From the NCBI GenBank assembly GCA_002049455.2, contig KV918886.1, positions 1 through 64,000 of the forward strand: a stretch of 64,000 nucleotides of DNA, given 5' to 3'. A program made the translations under genes and the position numbers. Below, in pieces: positions 4,412 to 35,200 of this stretch. Numbering within the stretch: position 1 is the first letter of the stretch; every line of letters starts with the position of its first letter. The DNA comes from Porphyra umbilicalis (lineage: Eukaryota; Rhodophyta; Bangiophyceae; Bangiales; Bangiaceae). Under the pieces are notes generated by a model. The model was not told the DNA's origin. It saw only the letters and a program-made list of their open reading frames with translations, and did no database searches.

Positions 4412-6635
4412 ATGGAGCCGGAAAAGACCTTCTCCGCTGTGATGCGCCTTTTTGTTGAAGTAACGCCAAAGAACATCGGCGGTGGCAACTTCGTGCCGGT
4501 CTCATTCATCCTCCACACCGTCATGCACCTGCGCAACATCGTCCGAGTGCACTCGACCGCGGACACGGGGTGCCTGGCCCAGTACCTGCAGAAGCTCTTC
4601 GAGACGCCGGACGAGAAGGAGTATGCCAAGATCTTCGCGACCGCCTTGAAGGTCGACCCCGCTTGCATTGACATCAAAGACCGTGTTGTGGTACGTTTCT
4701 TGTTAGCATTGTGTATCTCCGTGGTGTGGAGCACTGCACCAGCTGGTGCGGTTGTATTGCGTGCGCTGCAGCATTCGGTGTACTTGCTGTGATGTTTTCG
4801 CGGTTGTGCTACCGCAGCGTCGTCCCGCGGCGTCGTGAATGGTTCCATGGCCGCAGAAGTCATGGTCGCGCCTCTATTCCTGTCCTCTGTTCGTATTCTG
4901 ACTTGCAGTCTTGCGTACGCCTTGCAGTTTGATCCTTCTTCCTTTGTTGCTTGTTTTTCCAACATAGGCATCGAAGCACGTGATGAACCAGCCTCGCCAC
5001 CTGATCGCCGAGTCCGTCAAGGAGCTGACCAACCCGGACGCGGCGTATAAGTTTAACTACGTCTGCCGCAACTTCCTCCTGCGCGTCAAGATGTCGCTGA
5101 AGTCCCCTATGTCCGAGACGGCGTTCCCCACGGGTGTCACAGCGGAAGAGGCAGCCGACATTGGCAAGCATGTCTCCGAGCTGGTGATGAACTCTGGAGT
5201 TCAGGTTCCGGCCTCGTGCGCCATCCTTGTCGCGGCTGAGGACCCAGAGGAGGAGGACGTGGTCTTGGACATTTCCACTCTCTCCGTGGCGCCTACGGTG
5301 AATGGGCTCCAGTTCATCTGGGCGAAGTCCACTGACCCGGACCCGGCGTCGACGGCGCTGCTGAAAGCGCTGCGGAAGCCGTTGCTCGCCGGGCCTGCCA
5401 AGCCAAACGGAGCGGCGCGGAGAGTTCCAGCGGCGGCTTCTGCACGCTCTGCTGCTGCGCTTCCACCGGTGGCGCCGAAGAAGAAGAAGCGCGGCAAAGG
5501 CGGTGGCGCCAAGGAGTCGGGCGATCCTCTCCGGGGGGCTACCACCAAGTCAGTGCGTGGTGTGAATACTCCTGTCGTGCAGCAAATGCTAGCCGACATG
5601 CAAGCTGCCGCGGCAGAAGCCATCCTGGACGTGAACGCTGAGGCGGACACCATGGAGCCGTACTATACAGTGCGCGCGGTACCCCCGCACGAGGTCTGGA
5701 TGGCCGGGGGCGTGGCGGTCGTGGTGCAGTTTCCCTTTTCCCTCAATGACTCGGGGCCACCGCCAGGATGGGTGATCTCTACAAAGAAGATCATCACCAA
5801 TACCGGTGCGGGCGGCACCTACGCTACCACCTTCCAACTGTCCCCGGGCGGTCAAGGCGTTGATTCCCTCGCGCCGAATGCCTTCCCGGCTCTGCCTGTT
5901 GCAGGCTCGTGGCCGCTGGTCGCAACCAGAGCTCCATCGCAAGTCGCCCCGGTCGTCCGGCTGTTGCCCGATAGTGGTTCCCGACGGCCACGATGTGCGG
6001 ACGCCCCCCCCGCGCCCGCCGCCGCCACCGTGCCGGCCGCCTCCCCCGGGGCTCCACCGGCCGGAACCGAGGACTACCCACCGATGCCGACCGCTGGCGC
6101 TACGGCGCCGAGTTCCACTGGTGGTATTGCGCCTGTCGTTCCGGCTGCTTCCCCGCCAACTGCTGTCGGGGCACCTCCGATGGCCCCGGACAATGCGACC
6201 ATGGAAGAGGACCCGCCGCCCGACCTTACGGGCTCGACGGCCGCGTCTCCTGGCGCTGCGGCTGCGACGGTCGCCGACATTGCCTCGACGCCTACGCAGC
6301 CGCTTGCATCATCCCCTGAGGTATCTCTCGTCTTCCCCCCGCCACCTCTAAACAAGGCCTATGCCATTGGGGCTGACATTCATAGTGCCATAATGTCTGT
6401 GATGGGTCTGACCAACGACGACCTCAAGTTGGGACCAAACGACACCCTAATGATGACAACAGTGAAGACGTCTCCCCCGCCCCCGACGACGGTGGAGGTC
6501 ATCTTTTCTTGTGACAAGGAGCTGGACCTGACGCCCGCCGGCGAACGGAAAGGCCAGCACCAGGACTTCTTGATTGCTCTGTATCCCGCGCATCCTATTG
6601 TTGTTGAGCAGCCTAAAAAGGTTGTGCGCGGGTGA
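4412..6635 (+). CDS. Two-exon orphan protein, Pro/Ala-rich C-terminal half
   Basis: Exon 1 is 4412-4690 and exon 2 is 4968-6635. They join in phase 0 to give 648 residues. ATG 4412 is the first ATG of the sequence-complex part (MEPEKTFSAVMRLFVEV). The N-terminal third (about residues 1-200) reads as a folded, helix-rich domain (FILHTVMHLRNIV, CLAQYLQKLFETPDEKEYAKIF). A lysine cluster PKKKKRGKGGG near residue 265 could be a nuclear localisation signal. A low-complexity Pro/Ala region follows, then a conserved-looking C-terminal block (AYAIGADIHSAIMSVMGLTNDDL). I do not recognise the family. It has no neighbours in a clear functional unit. It could be a host orphan or a transposon accessory protein. 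That it is a real gene is well supported by clean splice sites and coding-like composition on both sides of the intron. Confidence 0.75.
4691..4967 (+). other. Spliceosomal intron of the orphan gene
   Basis: The 277-nt intron begins GTACGTTTC and ends in a T-rich tract with AACATAG. It splits the frame cleanly between a GTG codon and GCATCGAAG. In-frame translation through it reaches a stop. It is much less GC-rich than the exons and lacks the homopolymer ends of the cyclin intron. Confidence 0.8.
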
Positions 6636-8699
6636 CCAACGCACGCTGGTTGTCTGTTTGGAGCTTAGTGCACTGTGTGTGCTTGTCTGTTGCGTGATTG
6701 TGTAAACGGAGACGTGCCTAGTTGCATCTATGTGTATTTCCATACAAGTCTGGCTTCCAGATGGAGAACAGAATGCAGCACGCACTCGTTATTTCCATCT
6801 GGATGGAGCGTCACGCCGTCTGTCGTGACTGATGGTCGAACGTCGACGGACACCCGCGCTGTCTCTTCAACTCACCCGACTTCCACAGGATCGTGCGTGC
6901 CCGCTCCCCACGTGGTCACCGAAGACCCTACCGTCGCGCCGCGTGGCCCGCCCGTCGTGGCTGCCGCCGAGACTGCGCGCACCGCAACCACAGGCACTGC
7001 CGCTTTGCCGTGCTTGCGGTTTTTCGCCGGCGGCGCCTGAGGGCGGGCGTCTCGTGCCCCCCCTCAGCCTTCCAACATGATTGGGGAATAGAGTGCGGGT
7101 CTCCACCCAAGCCCGCCCGGCAGCAAGGTGACAGTTGGCCATCCTCCGCGGTGCTGCCGTGTGGGCTGTTCACTCGACACTTGGGCACCCGCCCGTCGGC
7201 GGAAAGAGAGTAGGGGGTAACGAGCGTCAATGCCAGGCTCTTGGGTGCTCGCGTCACGACCGGCGACTCCTGGGGTGGCTTCTTGACGCCCACAACAAAG
7301 GGGGACGGCGGCGACGAGACCTGGCGCGGCGGCGCGGAAAAGGTGGCGGCTGCGTCCCGGTGCGGCTCGCGGCGGACAGTCGGCGACGACACTGGGGGCG
7401 ACGTGGGCCGTGGAGGCGGCGGTGGCGATGTCGGGTGCACGACCTCGGCAGCCGCCGGTTTGGCCGCCCGCCACTTGCAGAACGCGTGGCAGCGGCGCCG
7501 TCACCGCCGCCGCCCCACCCAGCCCTCCCGCATATCGGCGTCCTTGCGGCCACGCAGCACCGGCGGCGGTGCGGCGCTCTTGGCCGCGCCCCCCATCGGC
7601 GCGGTCCCAGACGACGAGACCGTCACCCCGATGAGCGGGCTGCCCCGACCCCCGCCACTATCGCAGCCGCCCGGCGGCGGCCGTGGTAGTTCCGGCGCAG
7701 ACAGAGCCGCCCGAGGTGTGACGGTAACGGCGATGGCGGCGCCCATGACAGCGTCCGGCTTCGAGGTTGGCCCGGGACGGTGGAACCTAGGAGCAAGGCA
7801 TGTTATTGTCCGAGCGTCATCATAGCGACCACGAGCGATCAACGAGAGAGCAAGTCGATGCATTTCGCCCTCCTGGAATCTGGCTAAGCACCGGCCCAGC
7901 ACGGTCTCTGCCCACTTTCGCACACATGTTCTGCCGCAGATGACGACAAAAGCACGATTTCTGCACCTTCCCAGCAGAGATGTGAGCAGGTAAACTGAAC
8001 GTATGTTGCAGAGACCGTGTGAAAACACAGTGCATGAGCGTAGTTCCTTCAGAAATTCTGCATGCTAATCTGCCAGAAGCTTGCAGACCAGCAGGCTGCC
8101 AGCACAAAATGGCCCGACCAGCAGCCATTTGGCAGACTGTGGAGATCCTGCAACAGCCTGTAACACGGAATCAGCAGATCCGTAAGGTACACGGTTTAAG
8201 CCCCACTGCGCAGCTGGGCGCCGCGGCGGCGCGGCGCAGGGCACTTTGCAGGCGGCACCGGGTGCGGCAGATTGGGTGCGCAGGGGCCACCCCCCGGCGG
8301 CTGTCGCGGTCGGCGACCAGGCGGTTTGGCCGCGGGTCCGCGGTGCCCCTGACGTTTGTCAGTTGGTGGGGACCCTGTCAGACGGGCGGTCCCTGTCGGA
8401 TCACAAAAGTGGCCCTCCGGGTCTGCCAGGACAGCAACGCAGACGGCACGGATGAACCCAAATTCTCCATCAATTACTGCCGTTGGGGCGCCAACTCTCC
8501 GCCCACCCACGGGCGTGTGTGTCGTGCGCCCCAGTGGACGAGGCGGGACGGTCTTGGATGGGAAGCGCACGCGCGCCGCCAGACACACACACGCGCCACC
8601 CAATCACGGGCGCGGTCGTGTGGGGTCGCGCACGCCGTCCCCCTCGACGCGCCGTGGCCTTGGTCGTCGGCGCACCCCGCCCGCTCGTGCGGCCGCCGT
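6636..8699. other. No supported gene
   Basis: Downstream flank of the orphan gene (T-rich to about 6800), then GC-rich sequence with overlapping open frames on both strands and no recognisable domain. A minus-strand frame starting at ATG 7747 is Ala/Pro/Gly-rich and too short and low-complexity to call. From about 7830 to 8250 the sequence is less GC-rich and shows nothing coding. Confidence 0.45.
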
Positions 8700-10840: not shown

Positions 10841-11292
10841 ATGGTGGCCAAGGGCGTCGTGCCGCGCTCGCGGCGCGGGGACCCCCCGCGCCGCTCCCAC
10901 GCGGCCGCCGCGTGGGCGCCCCCACCCGGCTGCAGTGACGCTGCCGGCGGCCGCGCCGGCGGCGGTGGCGGTGGTGGCGGCGGCGGCGGTGGTGGTGGCG
11001 GTGGCGGCGGCGGCGGCTGTGGCAGCGGCGGCGGCGGCGGCGGCGGTGGCGGGGCGGTGGCCGCCGCTGTTGGGGCGGCCCCCCCCCCCCCCCAGTGGCG
11101 CCCGGCGTGCCGCGCCGCGCCGCGCGGCCGGCGGCGGCCCCGGGGTGGCCGTGGTCCGACTCGTCCCTCTCGGCGCGCAGCAGCAGCTGCTCGGGCGGCA
11201 GCAGCGTCGGCAGTGGGAGCGACGGGGAGGAGCTCGAGTCGTGCAGTCCGCCCCCGCCGCCGCCGCCGCGGGGCGGTGGGGGTGGGGGTGGG

Positions 11293-11328
<36 letters not shown>

Positions 11329-12483
11329 CGTGGCCGTGCCGGCGGCGGCGGCGGTGGCCGCCAGCGACGCAGTGGGGGGGGCGTCGACCTCGGCGCGGGG
11401 TGGGGCGTGCACCACCCCACGACGCGCCCGGCGTCGTCGCTGCTTGTGGCGACGGCGGCGGGGGGGGGGGGCGGTGGCGGTGGCGGTGGCGGCTACGCCG
11501 CCGGTGGGGGGTATGGCGGTGCGCCGTACGGCGGCGGTGGGAGGGCGGTGGACGCTGGCGCCGCGGCAGCGGCGGCGGCGGCAGCGTCAGCGGCAGCGGC
11601 GGCGGCAGCGACCGCCGCGGCGGCAGCGGCGGCGGCCGAGGCGGCGGCGGCGGCGGCAGAGGAAAACGAGTTTGGGCCGGGCGGCGAAGCGGCGTTTGTG
11701 CGCGTCCTGTCGGCGGATTTGGAGAAGCTGTGTCGCCTAAACTACCACGTACGTTGGGGGGGGGGGGGGGGGGGGGGAGTCTGGGGGTCGGCGCCACCGG
11801 GACGGACCACGAGGGCGTGCCGGTGGGGGAGCGGGGGGGACGCGCGCGTCGTGGACGTGGAGACCTCGGTGAAAGGCGGCAATGGTGACTAACGCGACGG
11901 CGCTCGGGTGTGTTTGGGTCTCTCGGACCGACGCTCGCAACGGACCGGTGCCGCCTCTTTCCCCCCTCGCCGCCCCGCCCCCCCCCCCCCCCCCCCCCCC
12001 ACAGTCGCAGCCGCCACCGGCGCCGTCGGCCCCCCACTCCCTCTTCTACTCGCTGCACCCCCAAGCCTTCCCCCTCCCCTTTTACATTGCGCGGCTGGTC
12101 GCGCACCTGCCGACGCCGCCGTCGACCTACATCACCGCCCTCATCCTCCTGGACCGGCTGCAGGCGGCGCACCCCGGCACGCTCGCGGTGACGGCGCTCA
12201 ACGTGCACCGGCTGCTCATTACGGCGCTGCTCATTGCGTCCAAGACGCTGCACGAGCCGCCGCTCGGCAACGCCCTCGCCGCCGCCGTGGGGGGGGTGGG
12301 CGTCGGGGAACTCCGCCGCCTCGAGGGCGCCATGCTCGGCCGCCTCCGCTGGGCCGTCTTTGTGCGCGGCGACGAGTACCGGGTGTATGAGCGCGCGCTG
12401 ATGAGCCGCGTCGAGCGGGGGGGGGGGGGGGGGGGGGCATGGCCTCGCCCATTGGCAGCCCGGTCGGCTCCCAAGAGTGGTGA
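10841..12483 (+). CDS. P/U-type (PHO80-like) cyclin
   Basis: Cyclin of the PHO80/CYCU family, regulatory partner of a cyclin-dependent kinase. Exon 1 ends at 11748 and exon 2 starts at 12005. The cyclin box has hallmark blocks: LEKLCRLNYH at the end of exon 1, then TYITALILLDRLQAAHPG, NVHRLLITALLIASKTLHE and VGGVGVGELRRLEGAMLGRL, matching the NVHRL and VGGV--EL-RLE signature. The N-terminal part is Gly/Ala/Ser low complexity. No ATG lies in the exon-1 frame. The ATG at 10841 starts a neighbouring frame that joins it if the C15 run at 11079-11093 has a different length. The G21 run at 12417-12437 likewise separates the box from a short end (MASPIGSPVGSQEW) with stop at 12481-12483. Both ends of the model are therefore inferred; the cyclin box itself is clear. 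Confidence 0.85.
11749..12004 (+). other. Cyclin intron with complementary G-run and C-run ends
   Basis: The 256-nt phase-0 intron starts GTACGTT followed by 22 G (11756-11777) and ends with 23 C (11978-12000) followed by ACAG. The C-run stands in for the polypyrimidine tract. The two runs could pair and bring the splice sites together. A second AG six bases downstream (12009-12010) would also keep frame. Confidence 0.85.
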
Positions 12484-22832: not shown

Positions 22833-25800
22833 ATGGCGTCGCCGGCCGGCGCCGCCCTCCCTCCCATCAAGTGCGATTACTGCGCGGAGCGGTTTGGCAC
22901 GCAAGCCAACAAGGCCCGCCACGTGCAGGCGTCCCACAAGAACGAGAGCCGGCTGTTCGGTGCCGGTACGAGTGCGCCGGTGATGAAGTTCGTCTTTGGC
23001 CCCTTCGGTGCAGGCGGAGATGTCCCGCCCGCCTTGCTGGACGCCGACGCGGCGGCGGCGGAGCTCCCCACTGCCTCGCCGCCGCAGTTTGCGCTCAACG
23101 TAGACGCGGAGGCCGCTGGCGAGGACGACGGCATGCCGGTGCTTGTATCGGACGCGGTGGACGAGGACGGCCAGCCGCCGTTTGCCAATCTGGACGCAGA
23201 TGACGAGGGCCCCCCGCCGCTCATGTCAGACACGGAGGGAGACGACGACGAGGCGGGCCCCCGCCCCTTGCGGCGCTGCCTGACCGGCAACAGCCACCAT
23301 GATGGCGACAGTTCCGACAGCGGCTCATCGTCGACGTCGGGCGGGACGGACGAGATGGGCGGGACGGCCGAGTATGCGACATTTGACGACATCGACGACT
23401 TCCTCAACCCGAGTACCGGCGACGAGGTGGCCTTGGCGGCGGGCGCGTCCATGACCCAGCACGTCTTCTTTAGCAGCACGGCGGCGCGCATCCGCGCATA
23501 CTACGAGCGCCTGCCCGAGGCGTCTCAGTCGGTGCCAGTGGTTGACCCCTCGTGGGGGGTGCGCCCCACCCGCTTCAACTCGCCGGCGCTGCGCGGCGCG
23601 CTGCGCTTCGCCCTTACCGCTGGTGGCAGCGGGCTGAGCGACCCGGACCAGGTAGAGTACGCGCGGTCGCTGCGCGCGGTAGAGCGGGAGGCGGCGCGCG
23701 GAAGCAACGGGCAGGGCCCCATCACCTCTGCGTTTGCGAGCGACCACTCCTTCCTGACCGCCACGCGCCAGGAGATGAACCGGGTGCTGGCGCAACGGAA
23801 CTGGCAGATCGTGCCCATCGTCGTGGGGGGGCGGACGTTCCTTTACTACCATCGTGACGTGCTGCAGGTCGGGTTAGATGCCCTCTCCACTGCCACCACC
23901 GTGTCCTTTGGTCCCACCGACCACGCCGCCTTGGCGGGTGAAGACGGCGTGGCGGCGCGACTGGGCCATGTCGACCTGGATGGTGACGATGAGGGGCGTG
24001 TGCGTCACGGGTCGCTCGACAGCGACCTGTACCTCATGGAGGACCGCAGCGTGCGGCACATTCACGGCCCCGAAGCCCGCGTACTGGGCGTCCACCTGCA
24101 CGCGGACGAGGCGCTTGTCTCCTGGTCTGGTGCGTGCTACATGTTCCCGGTTCGGGCGGCTTTTATTAATGTTGTCGACGGCGGCCGCCGGTGGGTCACG
24201 GTCGGCTACATCGAACACGTCGGCAAGCCCACGGAGAGGACCTCTGCGGCGCGCGTCGCGACCAGCGACATGCGCAACGACCTCTTCCAGAGGTGCATTG
24301 CGGTGTCGCTGCGCCGACTTGTCAGGGCGAGCGAGACGGGCATCTCGGCACCCGTCGCCGGCCACGGCTTGGTCTTTCTCGTGCCGCGGGTGCTCGGCTT
24401 GGTCGTGGACCAGCCCGAGGAGCGCAACTTTTACGGGCTGATGGGCAACCAGTGCAGATTCTTTTGCTCCCCCTGCTTGGAGGATAGGCGAGTTAGTGGT
24501 GGCCTGATGGGCATCCCCGCGGTGGAGCGCGACGTCATCACGACGCTCGACGCGCAGCTGGCCGCCGCCGTCGTCCGCGCCGGCGACCCGCGTCCGAGCC
24601 GCCGCCGGTTGCTGGGGGAGCAGCACAGCGCCCTCGCGTTCGTTCCGGCGCTCGGCGCTGTGCACGGACTGGGCACGGGCGCCCACAACCTGTACCGCAT
24701 TGTGGCTTTTGACCTGCTGCACGTGTGGAAGTTGGGCGTGCTCCGCGACTTGGCCCAGCGCCTGCCGTCTGTTCTGGCGGCGCTGTGCCGCGGGCGCAGT
24801 GGCGCTCGCCTCGGCTCGGTCGCTGCAACGTTGGATGCGGTCAACCTCCGGGTTTTCCACCTCGGTCGCAACTGCAAGGCGTCGCCGGCTCCCCCAGGGT
24901 ACGTTTCTTTGCGCTGGCGCTGGTGATGGGTGAGTGGCGGTTGGGTGTGATGCCGGGCACCGCGTGATTGCCGGGTACCGCGTGAGTGGTGCGGAGCACG
25001 GCTGGGGCTGCAGCACCGACGGGGGGCGGGAGACGATGGAACGTATGCCGTACACGGGCAGTTGCTCGACGCCGCGCCGCAGCTATAAGTGGCTGCTGAC
25101 TGACTTTGTAAATGGCGTCACGTTATCTTTTTCCTCCGCTTTCTCTTTCCCAGGTGCTTTGTGACCAGGAAAGACACGCAGGCGACCATGACAGGCCGGA
25201 GCTGGCGCCACTTCAGCGCATTTTGGGCGTTCATGGTGGCCGGCGCGTTGGGCCCAGCCGGCAAGGACGCCTCCACGTCAAGCTCGGAGGACGACAACGT
25301 CGCCCCCGCCAACTCCAACTTGGCGGCGCACGCCGCCCAGTCTGACAGCGGCAGCGACTACGAATTCACCACCCAGTCGGAGGGGGACGACGCGCCCACG
25401 GGCCACGGCGAGCCGACGGCTGCAACCGACGGCCTGCCCGGTCCGGGCGTCGTCGAAACGGACGAGTACAATGACGCGTTCCAGGACATGCCGCTGCATG
25501 ACGCCATGCTTGACCTCTTCTGCCGAGCCGCCCAGCTTGGAGGGGAGCTGTTCGGCGACAACGTCGCGGACACTGCGGCCATGTCGGACGAGCAGATTTG
25601 TGCCATGGAGGAGCACGCAGCCGCCTTCGCGGTCGACGGCCTGCAAACGCTCTACGGGCATGTGCACACCACGAAGGTGCACCGGCTCGTCCAACACTTG
25701 GGCGACGAGCTCCGCGGCCGCGGCAACCTGTGGGAGGGCGACACGTCGGAAAACGAGAAGCTGCACTCCAGCTGCAAGCGTATGTTTCGACGCACCAACA

Positions 25801-32222: not shown

Positions 32223-35200
32223 TCAGTGCGCGTGGCTGGCCGCCCCCAACGTGACAGCACCAAAAGGCATCACCGCGCGCCCCCTCCCCCCTCGCGCCAC
32301 CTCACGGACCTTGAGGTACGCGGCCATGGCGCGCGCGAGCACCCGCATGCCGTGGCGCGCTTCCGGGATCAGCTGAATCATGTGCAGGAAGCCGTGCGGC
32401 ATGGACTCGTAAATCTCAAGCCGCACGTCGGCCGCGCGGCCAATGCGCCGCAGCCGCGTTGCGAGCGTCACCGCATCGTCAAAGAGCGGGTCGATGGAGC
32501 CTACGACGCAGGTGAGGGGCGGCAGCGCGGCCAGCTGCTCGTCCGACATGAGCAGCGGGGAGATGAGGGGGTTGCGCGGGTCCGCCTCGGCGGGGATGTA
32601 GGATTGGAGGCACAACTCGAGGACGGAGAGGGGGAGGAGGACGTCAAAAAAGGAAAGGAGGCGGGAGGGGGACCACGCGTTGGTCAGGTTGAGAGACGGG
32701 TAGGCCAAGCACAGGCCTGTGGGGGGGGGCAAGGAGCAAGGCCAGAAGACAACAAACAAGCACCACGACGCACGGCCATCAATCACCAGTGATAAACAAA
32801 GTCAGTATGTCAGCCGCTTTGCCGCACAGTTGAACTGGTCGACAAGACCAGGCCACACCAGCCGCGCCAACCGCAACACCGCCACCATCGCCACCCACCC
32901 GCCCCACCCAAAACGTACCATCTGGCGGGCGCATGCCCAGCTCCTGCGCCTTGAGGCACATGGCCACGGCCAAGTTCCCCCCCGCACTGTCGCCAACCAC
33001 CACCACCGACGCCGCCGTCGTGCCGATCGCCGCCCCATTCTCCAGCGCCCACCCGTACGCGTGGACCACCTCCAACAGCGCCACCGGGTACTGCGCTTCG
33101 GGCGCCAGCGAGTAGTCGACCGACAGGATGACCGCGTCGGGGAGCATCGCCGCCCACTCGCGCAAGTAGACCGCGTGGCTGAGGCTGCTCTGAGAGATGA
33201 AGCCCCCCCCGTGCACGTGGAGGACGAGGGCGGGGGCGGGGGCGGCGACGCCGCGGCCGAGCATCGACTCGAGGGAGGAGCTGAGGCGCGCGAATTCGCC
33301 TTTGAGGTGCTTGCCAAGGAGGGAGCGCGGTTTGAAGGCGCCGACGCCGCCACCGTTGGGGACGACCGCGCCGTCGGGGGCGGCGGGGGGAAGGGCGGCA
33401 CCGGCGGGGTGGTCCCCAGAGGTGGTGGCGACAAGGGCGGCAGCGGTGCTGGCAACGGTGGCAGAGGCAGTCGAAGAGAGTGGGGGTTGTCCGACACCGT
33501 CGACAGGCAACGACCCGCCGGTCGGGCTCGGCGAGCGCAAATGGCTCCCACCCGACGCCGACACGGCCGGCGTGGCGCCGCCCAAACCGTCGGCGGCAGA
33601 CGTGTCCTCCCCAACGGGCGGCGCCCGCTCTGCCGACGCTGCCCGGGAGCGGCCACCCCCCCCCCGCTGCCCTCCCCGTCTGGCGGCAGCCCCGCCTCCA
33701 TCGCCTCAAACGTCATGGTCGGCGGCAGCGCCACCGAGCCGCCGCCGTTGCCGTCGGGCCCGTCGGCCGTCACCACGTCCTCCGTCGGCGGCGACGCCGC
33801 GGGCACGCCCGGGCTGGCGGCGGGGGTGGCCCCCTCGGATGGCGGCGACGTGGACGTGGCGGCCGTGTGACGGCTGAGATGGCCCACAGGCCGGGACGCA
33901 TGGCTGAGTAACCGCGCCCGCACGCCGCAGCGTGGCCGCGCGCCGCGGGCGCGGCGGCGGGGGCGGTCGGCGGGGGCGGCGGGCATGCCCGACGGCGGCG
34001 CCTTGCCGCCTGGGGCAGCTCCGCCCCCGCTGCCGCCGCCGGCGGGGGTGCGGGCGACCGCAGGAGCCGCCGTCGCCGCGTCGGTGGCGGGCTCGCCGGG
34101 AGCGGCAGACGCAGAGGCGCGCTCTGACGCCACCTCCCCATCGGCCGGCGCGGGCCGTTGAGCTGCCGCCCCCGACGCTGTCGGTGCCGCCGGCGCGTCT
34201 GGCGCTGGCGTTGGTGGCGGCGGTGGCGTGGGCGCGATGGACGACAGCAGGCTGGTAAACGCGTGCAGCATCCCATCCACTCCCTTCTTCGCTGCCTGCG
34301 CCACCCCCTCGTCACCGTCGCCCGACGCGTCGCCGCCGCCACCGCCGCCGCCGCTGCCGCCGCCACTGCCCCCCCCCTCCCCCCGGATGCCCCCCCCCCA
34401 AGTCGCCCTCCCCAAACGCCCCCCGCGCGGAGGCCATCCCCCCGCCACCGACAGGTCGGCCGACGCGGCCGCGTCGGTCGTCCCCCGCAGCGCGTCCGGC
34501 ACCGGCGGCAACAAAAACGCCTTGTCAATCGCCACGTCCGCCGCGACCAGCCCGCTGACGCCGCTGATAAACGGGTCCTCGACGAGGTTCATAAACGAGC
34601 GCACCTCCTCCACGGTCGCGCGGGCGGCGCGGCGGCTGCGGCTGCCGCCGCGCGACGGCTCCGCGCCAATCGCGGCCGCGCCGTGGACGGGCACGCCGAG
34701 CGCCTGCAGCGCGGTCATGTTGGAGTACACCCACCCCCACCCGAGGATGTGCGCCGACTGGACGAGCGACGGGTTCCCCCCCGAGCCGGACGAGGCGACC
34801 GCCGCGCCGACGCTGCCGCGCGCGATTTTCACAACTTGCAACACGTTGCGCATGTCGGGGAGGTAGTGGAAGCCAAAGTAGCGCCCGAAAAAGTCGTCCA
34901 TTCGCACCGCCGACCGCCACTGGTCGGGCGCGCCGAGCTCCGGGTCGTCCGACACGTCGACAAAGAGCGACGCGCGGATGGACGGGGAGCGGGACAGCTT
35001 GGCCGCCAGGTGGATGACGGAAAAGAGCGCCCGCAGCTGCCCGTGGTGCGTGCGGAGGCGGTCAAAGGCGGGGCGCAGTTGGAGGGACGTGACCACCCAC
35101 CCGCCGTGCGCCGACGCCAGCTCCGCCACCGCCCCGCGCGTGCGGCGGAGGAGGGTGAGGAGGATGCACAGGAGCGTCTCAAAGCCGTTGCGGGGGGGGG

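Follow-up and report, generated by a model that had tools for sequence, protein, structure and literature searches.

A cyclin intron with a G run and a C run at its splice sites in Porphyra umbilicalis: probably an ordinary intron of the GC-rich extreme

The cyclin intron and its surroundings

The window, a stretch of 64,000 nucleotides of Porphyra umbilicalis DNA, lies on contig C126 of the genome scanned here (83.8 Mb, 665 contigs). It contains a gene for a PHO80-type cyclin, interrupted by an interval that begins with a long G run and finishes with a long C run. The features of this gene, and the other introns of the window that bear on it, are as follows.

10939..11748, + strand: cyclin gene exon 1, a phase-0 frame that stays open from the last stop upstream, ending ...FVRVLSADLEKLCRLNYH; its start as drawn is the opening of the frame
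11749..11755, + strand: donor GTACGTT; GTACGT is the commonest donor among kinase introns
11756..11777, + strand: G22 run, directly after GTACGTT; predicted to pair with 11979–12000, or to form a G-quadruplex
11889..11893, + strand: CTAAC, putative branch point by its motif, with the A at 11892, 113 nt before AG
11978..12000, + strand: C23 run in the position of the polypyrimidine tract, directly before ACAG
12001..12004, + strand: acceptor ACAG, from the sequence
12005..12400 (end approximate), + strand: cyclin exon 2, PHO80-type cyclin domain (PF08613; 2pk9_B)
4691..4967, + strand: predicted intron of an orphan gene, 277 nt, GTACGT donor, T-rich acceptor, no runs
24899..25153, + strand: predicted intron of a transposase-like gene, 255 nt, GTACGT donor, T-rich acceptor, no runs
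32717..32918, − strand: intron of an alpha/beta hydrolase ('lipase') gene, 202 nt, C9-ACAG acceptor, CTGAC 94 and 86 nt before AG

Read directly from the sequence, 11749–12004 (+) is a 256-nt interval of the form GTACGTT-G22-...-C23-ACAG, the exact run lengths as assembled being uncertain; the original prediction had placed these two runs at the splice sites, and both are there. If the interval is retained, stops occur in all three frames; if it is removed, the exons join in phase 0. The spliced product matches PF08613 in a Pfam search (E 2.7e-17) and PHO80 in the PDB (2pk9_B, E 1.3e-7), the latter in an alignment that begins within exon 1 (query residues 22–31) and crosses the exon junction. 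With exon 1 included the Pfam score rises only slightly (64.0 versus 63.4 bits), so the main support for the junction comes from the frame, the splice motifs and the PHO80 alignment. The interval has every element of the layout of the kinase introns described below, including CTAAC at 113 nt, and GT and AG ends with the donor type of this genome, in-frame joining and a branch-point motif place it with U2-type introns. Its length, the stops in three frames, the phase-0 join and a CTAAC positioned as in introns supported by homology make it very likely, judged from the sequence, that 11749–12004 is a real intron.

A G21 run (poly-Gly) is also present within exon 2, at 12417–12437. The cyclin frame as assembled continues to about 12990 through low-complexity sequence; past the G21 it depends on the exact length of that run, and one other frame stops near 12480. 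The assembly may have the length of this run wrong.

Paired runs are found in only one of the four introns of the window listed above, that of the cyclin. The spliced lipase product matches Abhydrolase_3 (E 1.4e-48). Its intron had been described as a weaker version of the cyclin intron: it has a G-rich start and a C9-ACAG end, and its longest G run in the first 50 nt is 4. The introns at 4691–4967 and 24899–25153 have, as had been noted, GTACGT donors, T-rich acceptors and no runs, the longest 5' G and 3' C runs being 2 and 2 in the former and 3 and 3 in the latter. No Pfam match was found for the orphan gene, while the frame holding the intron at 24899–25153 gave a sub-threshold match to a Plavaka transposase (23.4 bits versus a cut-off of 26.3).

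Long runs are abundant in this genome, with G20 starting at 7415 places on the forward and 8742 on the reverse strand. By arithmetic from this genome count, about 12 starts of a 20-base G or C run would be expected in the window at the genome average, versus 52 present. The segment at 8.7–12.55 kb is a hotspot with 21 G or C runs of at least 12, both cyclin intron runs included. It is unlikely that both runs came to lie at both splice sites by random placement; the strand asymmetry of introns, together with high GC, accounts for their sitting there. Elsewhere in the assembly, contig G000:C665 encodes a set of phycobilisome proteins and is presumably the plastid genome.

Intron layout and G runs after donors

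Reference introns were found by homology in protein kinase genes. A Pfam kinase scan of the genome gave 144 matches with about 33 gaps between exon matches, and 26 gaps were read. Nineteen were introns used in the statistics (boundaries were placed by hand in L069, L070, L071 and L085, and the frame of the L085 join is doubtful); L124 and L126, both without long runs, were recognised later as introns and stand outside the 65-intron set used below; and five gaps (L086, L123, L125, L127 and L128) are open in-frame inserts. The donors of the kinase introns are GTACGT, GTATGT, GTAAGG or GTACGG, followed by a G-rich start and finally a pyrimidine-rich end. When the 19 are taken with the lipase intron, CTRAC occurs 40–150 nt before AG in 19 of 20, versus 6 of 20 within the first 111 nt. 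Runs of three or more G exceed those of C in the first 80 nt of these introns (mean 2.50 versus 0.55, p 0.0009), and the reverse is true of the last 80 nt (0.40 versus 1.60, p 0.007). The final 60 nt of exon 1 have a weaker G excess as well, again in runs of three or more (0.95 versus 0.20, p 0.007), so the excess is not limited to introns. Among the 19, 5' G runs reach at most 11 and 3' C runs at most 5, and paired runs occur in none of the 21 kinase introns found by homology.

The intron position HRDLK/PEN (the slash marking the intron) is common to many kinase loci in L069–L082, mostly in phase 0, in a genome in whose families introns are few. Two copies of one kinase gene, L077 and L078, have closely similar, slightly diverged introns with no long runs in either. 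The DEAD, MFS and UCH families were also tried as a source of introns and gave few exon pairs. Three gaps from this set (L177–L179) were rejected, as they hold no GT..AG intron and resemble low-complexity coding sequence. L177 and L178, in protease (UCH) and DEAD-box genes, carry a G18 and a C13 run with the frame shifted; these may be genuine inserts of low complexity or else errors in run length.

In the GC-rich genes of this alga, long G runs recur just past the donors of introns and are strand-biased. Genome-wide, GTACGT followed after 0–8 nt by G14 was counted at 34 forward places, at least 3 of them repeat copies, versus 8 with C14 in place of G14; on the reverse strand, where each run was counted several times, the raw figures are 162 and 13. 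Reversed controls gave raw counts of 28 forward and 7 reverse for G14, the 7 being the singly counted figure, and 8 and 5 for C14. With a shorter run, GTACGTTK-G6 has 28 sites versus 0 in the reversed control; two repeat families contribute 12 of the 28 as extra copies. Besides the window's own, 45 GTACGT-G14 sites were read. Removal of the duplicates L116 and L117 left 43, of L090, L113 and L115 left 40, and of L089 left 39; in 25 of these 39 both branch point and acceptor could be assigned with confidence, and these were taken as predicted introns, while 14 have no confident acceptor. From the 28 GTACGTTK-G6 sites, 14 without a confident acceptor and six copies of an ABC gene were removed, with copies L152 and L170 of that gene kept.

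The runs also keep to their own ends of the intron. Among the 65 introns, none has a G run of nine or more in its last 60 nt and none a C run of nine or more in its first 50 nt. At 200–345 nt, G runs of nine or more follow none of 40 G14 donors, versus 13 of 60 control G14 runs. Sense-strand enrichment of G runs just downstream of donors, the mark of G-run introns, is present here. Since long G runs recur after GTACGT and are strand-biased, they are tied to splicing and are not random junk. To this extent the proposal that homopolymers are maintained by splicing is supported; that pairing is their function is not supported.

GTACGTTGSCGB was discarded as a donor pattern, its sites being mostly non-intron (129 versus 98 in the control); 40 of the 100 places listed were read, all GTACGTTGGCG, and 10 passed the acceptor filter. 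Several repeats resemble or contain G-run donors. In one family (L089, L090, L113, L115, L116 and L117; seen as sequence in L089, L090, L113 and L115), units of GTACGT and a G run (CAGTACGGGCAGTACG...) mimic donors. A dispersed repeat with GTACGTT(T/G)G6 (L158, L160, L161, L163, L172 and L174) has similar upstream flanks, with divergence downstream in L158 and L174; one of its copies, L158, got through the acceptor filter and belongs to the 65. Eight similar intron copies of 259–273 nt (L152, L162, L164, L165, L167, L170, L171 and L176) belong to a multi-copy gene whose flanking exons are near-identical, LLLD/EPTAGL (LLLN in L162). These exons resemble what we take to be the Walker B motif of an ABC transporter.

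Co-occurrence and pairing of the two runs

The 65-intron set comprises 21 introns from kinases, cyclin and lipase, 25 with G14, 8 with G6–7, 10 with GTACGTTGGCG and one bystander. Acceptors are computer-predicted in 44 of the 65, by a predictor that placed the acceptor correctly in 19 of 21 known introns, cases already in sight when it was designed. L015, L022 and L025, which were found through their C runs, are outside the set. Across the 65, the length of the 5' G run correlates with that of the 3' C run (rho 0.45, p 0.0002), and with core GC held constant the correlation is gone (partial −0.01, p 0.94). Among introns with a core GC of at least 0.62, rho is 0.07 (n=38). C runs of nine or more occur there in 7 of 31 introns with G12+ versus 1 of 7 without, and in 7 of 28 with G14+ versus 1 of 10 without, and the C-run lengths of the latter 28 and 10 do not differ (p 0.92); GC-rich introns without a G run are few in these comparisons (7 below G12, 10 below G14), and a modest pairing effect could escape. 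An analysis that retained repeat copies gave a partial correlation of 0.28 (p 0.03), with longer C runs in the GC-rich G14+ introns (p 0.006). Both effects vanish when the copies are removed, and the deduplicated figures are adopted here.

A count made with no acceptor prediction gave C runs of nine or more at 200–345 nt from 9 of 40 G14 donors versus 10 of 60 control G14 runs (p 0.60), and C runs of seven or more from 17 of 40 versus 16 of 60 (p 0.13); the controls lie in GC-richer DNA (0.80 versus 0.73), which raises their background of C runs. Poly-C had been suggested to act as a pairing partner, should such introns be common in this genome; C runs are not significantly more frequent after G14 donors than after the control runs. 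A C run of at least 14 is present in the last 60 nt of 3 of 26 introns (the 25 predicted GTACGT-G14 introns and the cyclin), namely the cyclin, L062 (G17/C25) and L104 (G18/C20). Weaker paired cases, found through their C runs, are L015 (G11/C21) and L022 (G8/C17), and a long C run without a long G run is found in L067b (C15/G3) and L025 (C21/G3). Among 30 C14-ACAG loci read, a GTACGT donor with a run of G8 or more lies within 900 nt upstream in three (cyclin, L015 and L022). C14-ACAG was rejected as an enriched acceptor genome-wide (40 versus 67 in the reversed control); of the 40 loci, these 30 were read and only a handful are intron-like.

Pairing energy was compared by swapping partners, with duplex energies for 60 nt near the donor against 60 nt near the acceptor in 64 x 64 combinations (L120, of 128 nt, being excluded). 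Own 5' and 3' partners average −50.90 kcal/mol, versus −48.20 for free swaps (p 0.0044). When swaps are confined to GC blocks, their means are −50.57 to −50.89 kcal/mol (p 0.34–0.48) and own partners have no advantage; with an SD of about 0.7, the test would have detected own partners that paired better by some 1.5 kcal/mol on average. Among GC neighbours, 49.5% pair better than the own partner. The co-occurrence of G and C runs is explained by GC. In a self-pairing repeat intron, the two ends should carry complementary repeats that can pair as a stem, as they do in the predicted fold of the cyclin intron, and such runs should co-occur beyond composition, which was not found in a set with few GC-rich introns lacking a G run. 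The claim that pairing is a function of these introns is accordingly not supported, with no C14+ in 23 of the 26 GTACGT-G14 introns and no own-partner gain, and neither is the expected enrichment and length correlation of paired runs, given 0 of 21 kinase introns and no partial correlation at constant GC in homology-found and predicted introns.

The runs are complementary and can be folded together in silico, as had been proposed. In the minimum-energy fold by RNAfold, positions 8–29 of the cyclin intron pair with 231–252 in a 22-bp G:C stem, with GTACGTT and ACAG outside it. The predicted energy is −165.1 kcal/mol, versus −107.4 when the G run is made unpairable. With quadruplexes allowed, for which the energy parameters are rough, the stem is retained in the intron alone (−165.6), the G run enters a quadruplex when 60-nt flanks are included (−213.7 versus −199.8), and G22 alone gives −54.0 kcal/mol as a quadruplex. 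On these models a G22:C23 stem is possible, not certain, and would compete with a quadruplex, which could form first during transcription.

Explanations of the runs and comparison with known systems

In the self-pairing model, the G:C stem would juxtapose donor and acceptor and help or replace recognition by U2AF, and selection would keep the runs matched. The stability of the predicted 22-bp stem is consistent with this, as are the paired runs of L062 and L104, the weaker ones of L015 and L022 and the nearest precedent for such a device, the dinucleotide-repeat introns of zebrafish (PMC9198270, PMC6883713, in the parts available). However, the runs co-occur no more than GC dictates, own partners have no advantage in GC-matched swaps, most GTACGT-G14 introns have no C14+, C-run acceptors exist without long G runs, and the quadruplex fold is lower in energy once flanks are added. 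A gene like that of the U2AF large subunit is moreover encoded on C37, where two exons score 215.6 and 104.5 bits and neither reaches the whole-protein cut-off of 310.3. With such a gene present, nothing indicates that pairing must replace U2AF. On the co-occurrence and own-partner tests, the pairing device is rejected as the main explanation, and we hold it to be highly improbable. The same small chance is given to a narrower form, in which a poly-G:poly-C stem would join the splice sites and the C tract would double as a pairing partner only in the cyclin, L062 and L104; if it were true of these three, mononucleotide slippage could create a U2AF-sparing intron.

That the runs are mutational junk, slippage products of GC-rich non-coding DNA that happen to lie close to splice sites, would suit the genome-wide abundance of long runs and the position of the cyclin intron in a run-rich hotspot. 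Strand asymmetry after donors and the absence of G runs of nine or more from the 3' parts of introns argue against it; the orientation of the runs in introns is fixed, and chance placement is therefore rejected and the explanation as a whole considered improbable. A further suggestion is that the G run folds as a quadruplex, or recruits proteins that bind G runs, and so promotes donor choice, the C run being unrelated. The excess of G14 over C14 after GTACGT, the sense-strand bias in kinase and lipase introns and the energy of G22 as a quadruplex all point this way, but a four-tract motif is present in the first 80 nt of only 2 of the 20 kinase and lipase introns, which were not chosen for G runs. 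A quadruplex is thus not a general requirement, and as a full account of the intron this one seems unlikely.

The cyclin interval is, with good probability, an ordinary U2-type spliceosomal intron of the GC-rich extreme of this alga's introns, and its runs are not a dedicated pairing device. Introns of this alga share a layout of GTACGT-type donor, G-rich first part, CTRAC about 60–130 nt before AG and pyrimidine-rich 3' end. High local GC would turn the G-rich part into G runs and the pyrimidine tract into C runs, and replication slippage would lengthen both. The G run is a putative splicing enhancer, which may act like the G-rich intronic enhancers or quadruplexes known near 5' splice sites elsewhere, in mammals and birds (PMC9065059, PMC2481429), while the C run would serve as the tract for U2AF or for a poly-C binder. 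Selection would exclude G runs from the 3' end and C runs from the 5' end. The 22-bp stem would be a physical by-product of this layout, which could form and yet would not maintain the runs. The cyclin intron is then an example of composition looking like design, in that GC-matched swapping removes the pairing signal, and its interest lies in G-run donors, not in pairing.

A limited literature search found no report on homopolymers in GC-rich Porphyra introns, and no wider absence is claimed; a similarly limited search on intron G and C runs, splicing and secondary structure found only a review of quadruplexes in cancer. In the red alga Pyropia yezoensis, the available part of one report gives a nuclear GC content of 63.6%, 0.7 introns per validated gene and introns of about 300 nt (PMC3594237), and these statistics resemble those of the present genome; that part makes no mention of intronic G or C runs. 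Intron 4 of human LCAT, a short GC-rich intron, contains both G-rich and C-rich intronic splicing enhancers (PMC2481429, in part). It resembles the cyclin intron in being GC-rich with internal stretches rich in G and in C, and differs in that its motifs are of 3–4 bases upstream of a weak tract, whereas the cyclin runs are of 22–23 bases at the two ends. The authors weighed a G:C stem-loop; with G-rich motifs in place of the C-rich ones, splicing stayed near wild type, which was their argument against the stem-loop (PMC2481429).

In zebrafish, introns whose two ends carry dinucleotide repeats complementary to each other are spliced without U2AF2 (Lin et al. 2016, as cited in the accessible portions of PMC9198270 and PMC6883713). 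These and the cyclin intron both have complementary simple repeats at their two ends and could form a hairpin. The zebrafish repeats are dinucleotides, in contrast to the mononucleotide runs of the cyclin, whose co-occurrence does not exceed that given by GC. A further likeness is to the G-quadruplex motifs that the non-template strand carries close to 5' splice sites, which among eleven species are enriched in mammals and birds and whose link to short introns could be driven by GC content (PMC9065059, in part, where no red alga is mentioned). They share with the cyclin intron sense-strand G runs just downstream of the donor, although here the runs are single and uninterrupted and the organism is a red alga. 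As far as the portion of that survey goes, sense-strand G runs after donors in a red alga extend the mammal and bird pattern (PMC9065059), and G-run donors are worth viewing as possible convergent splicing enhancement in GC-rich genomes.
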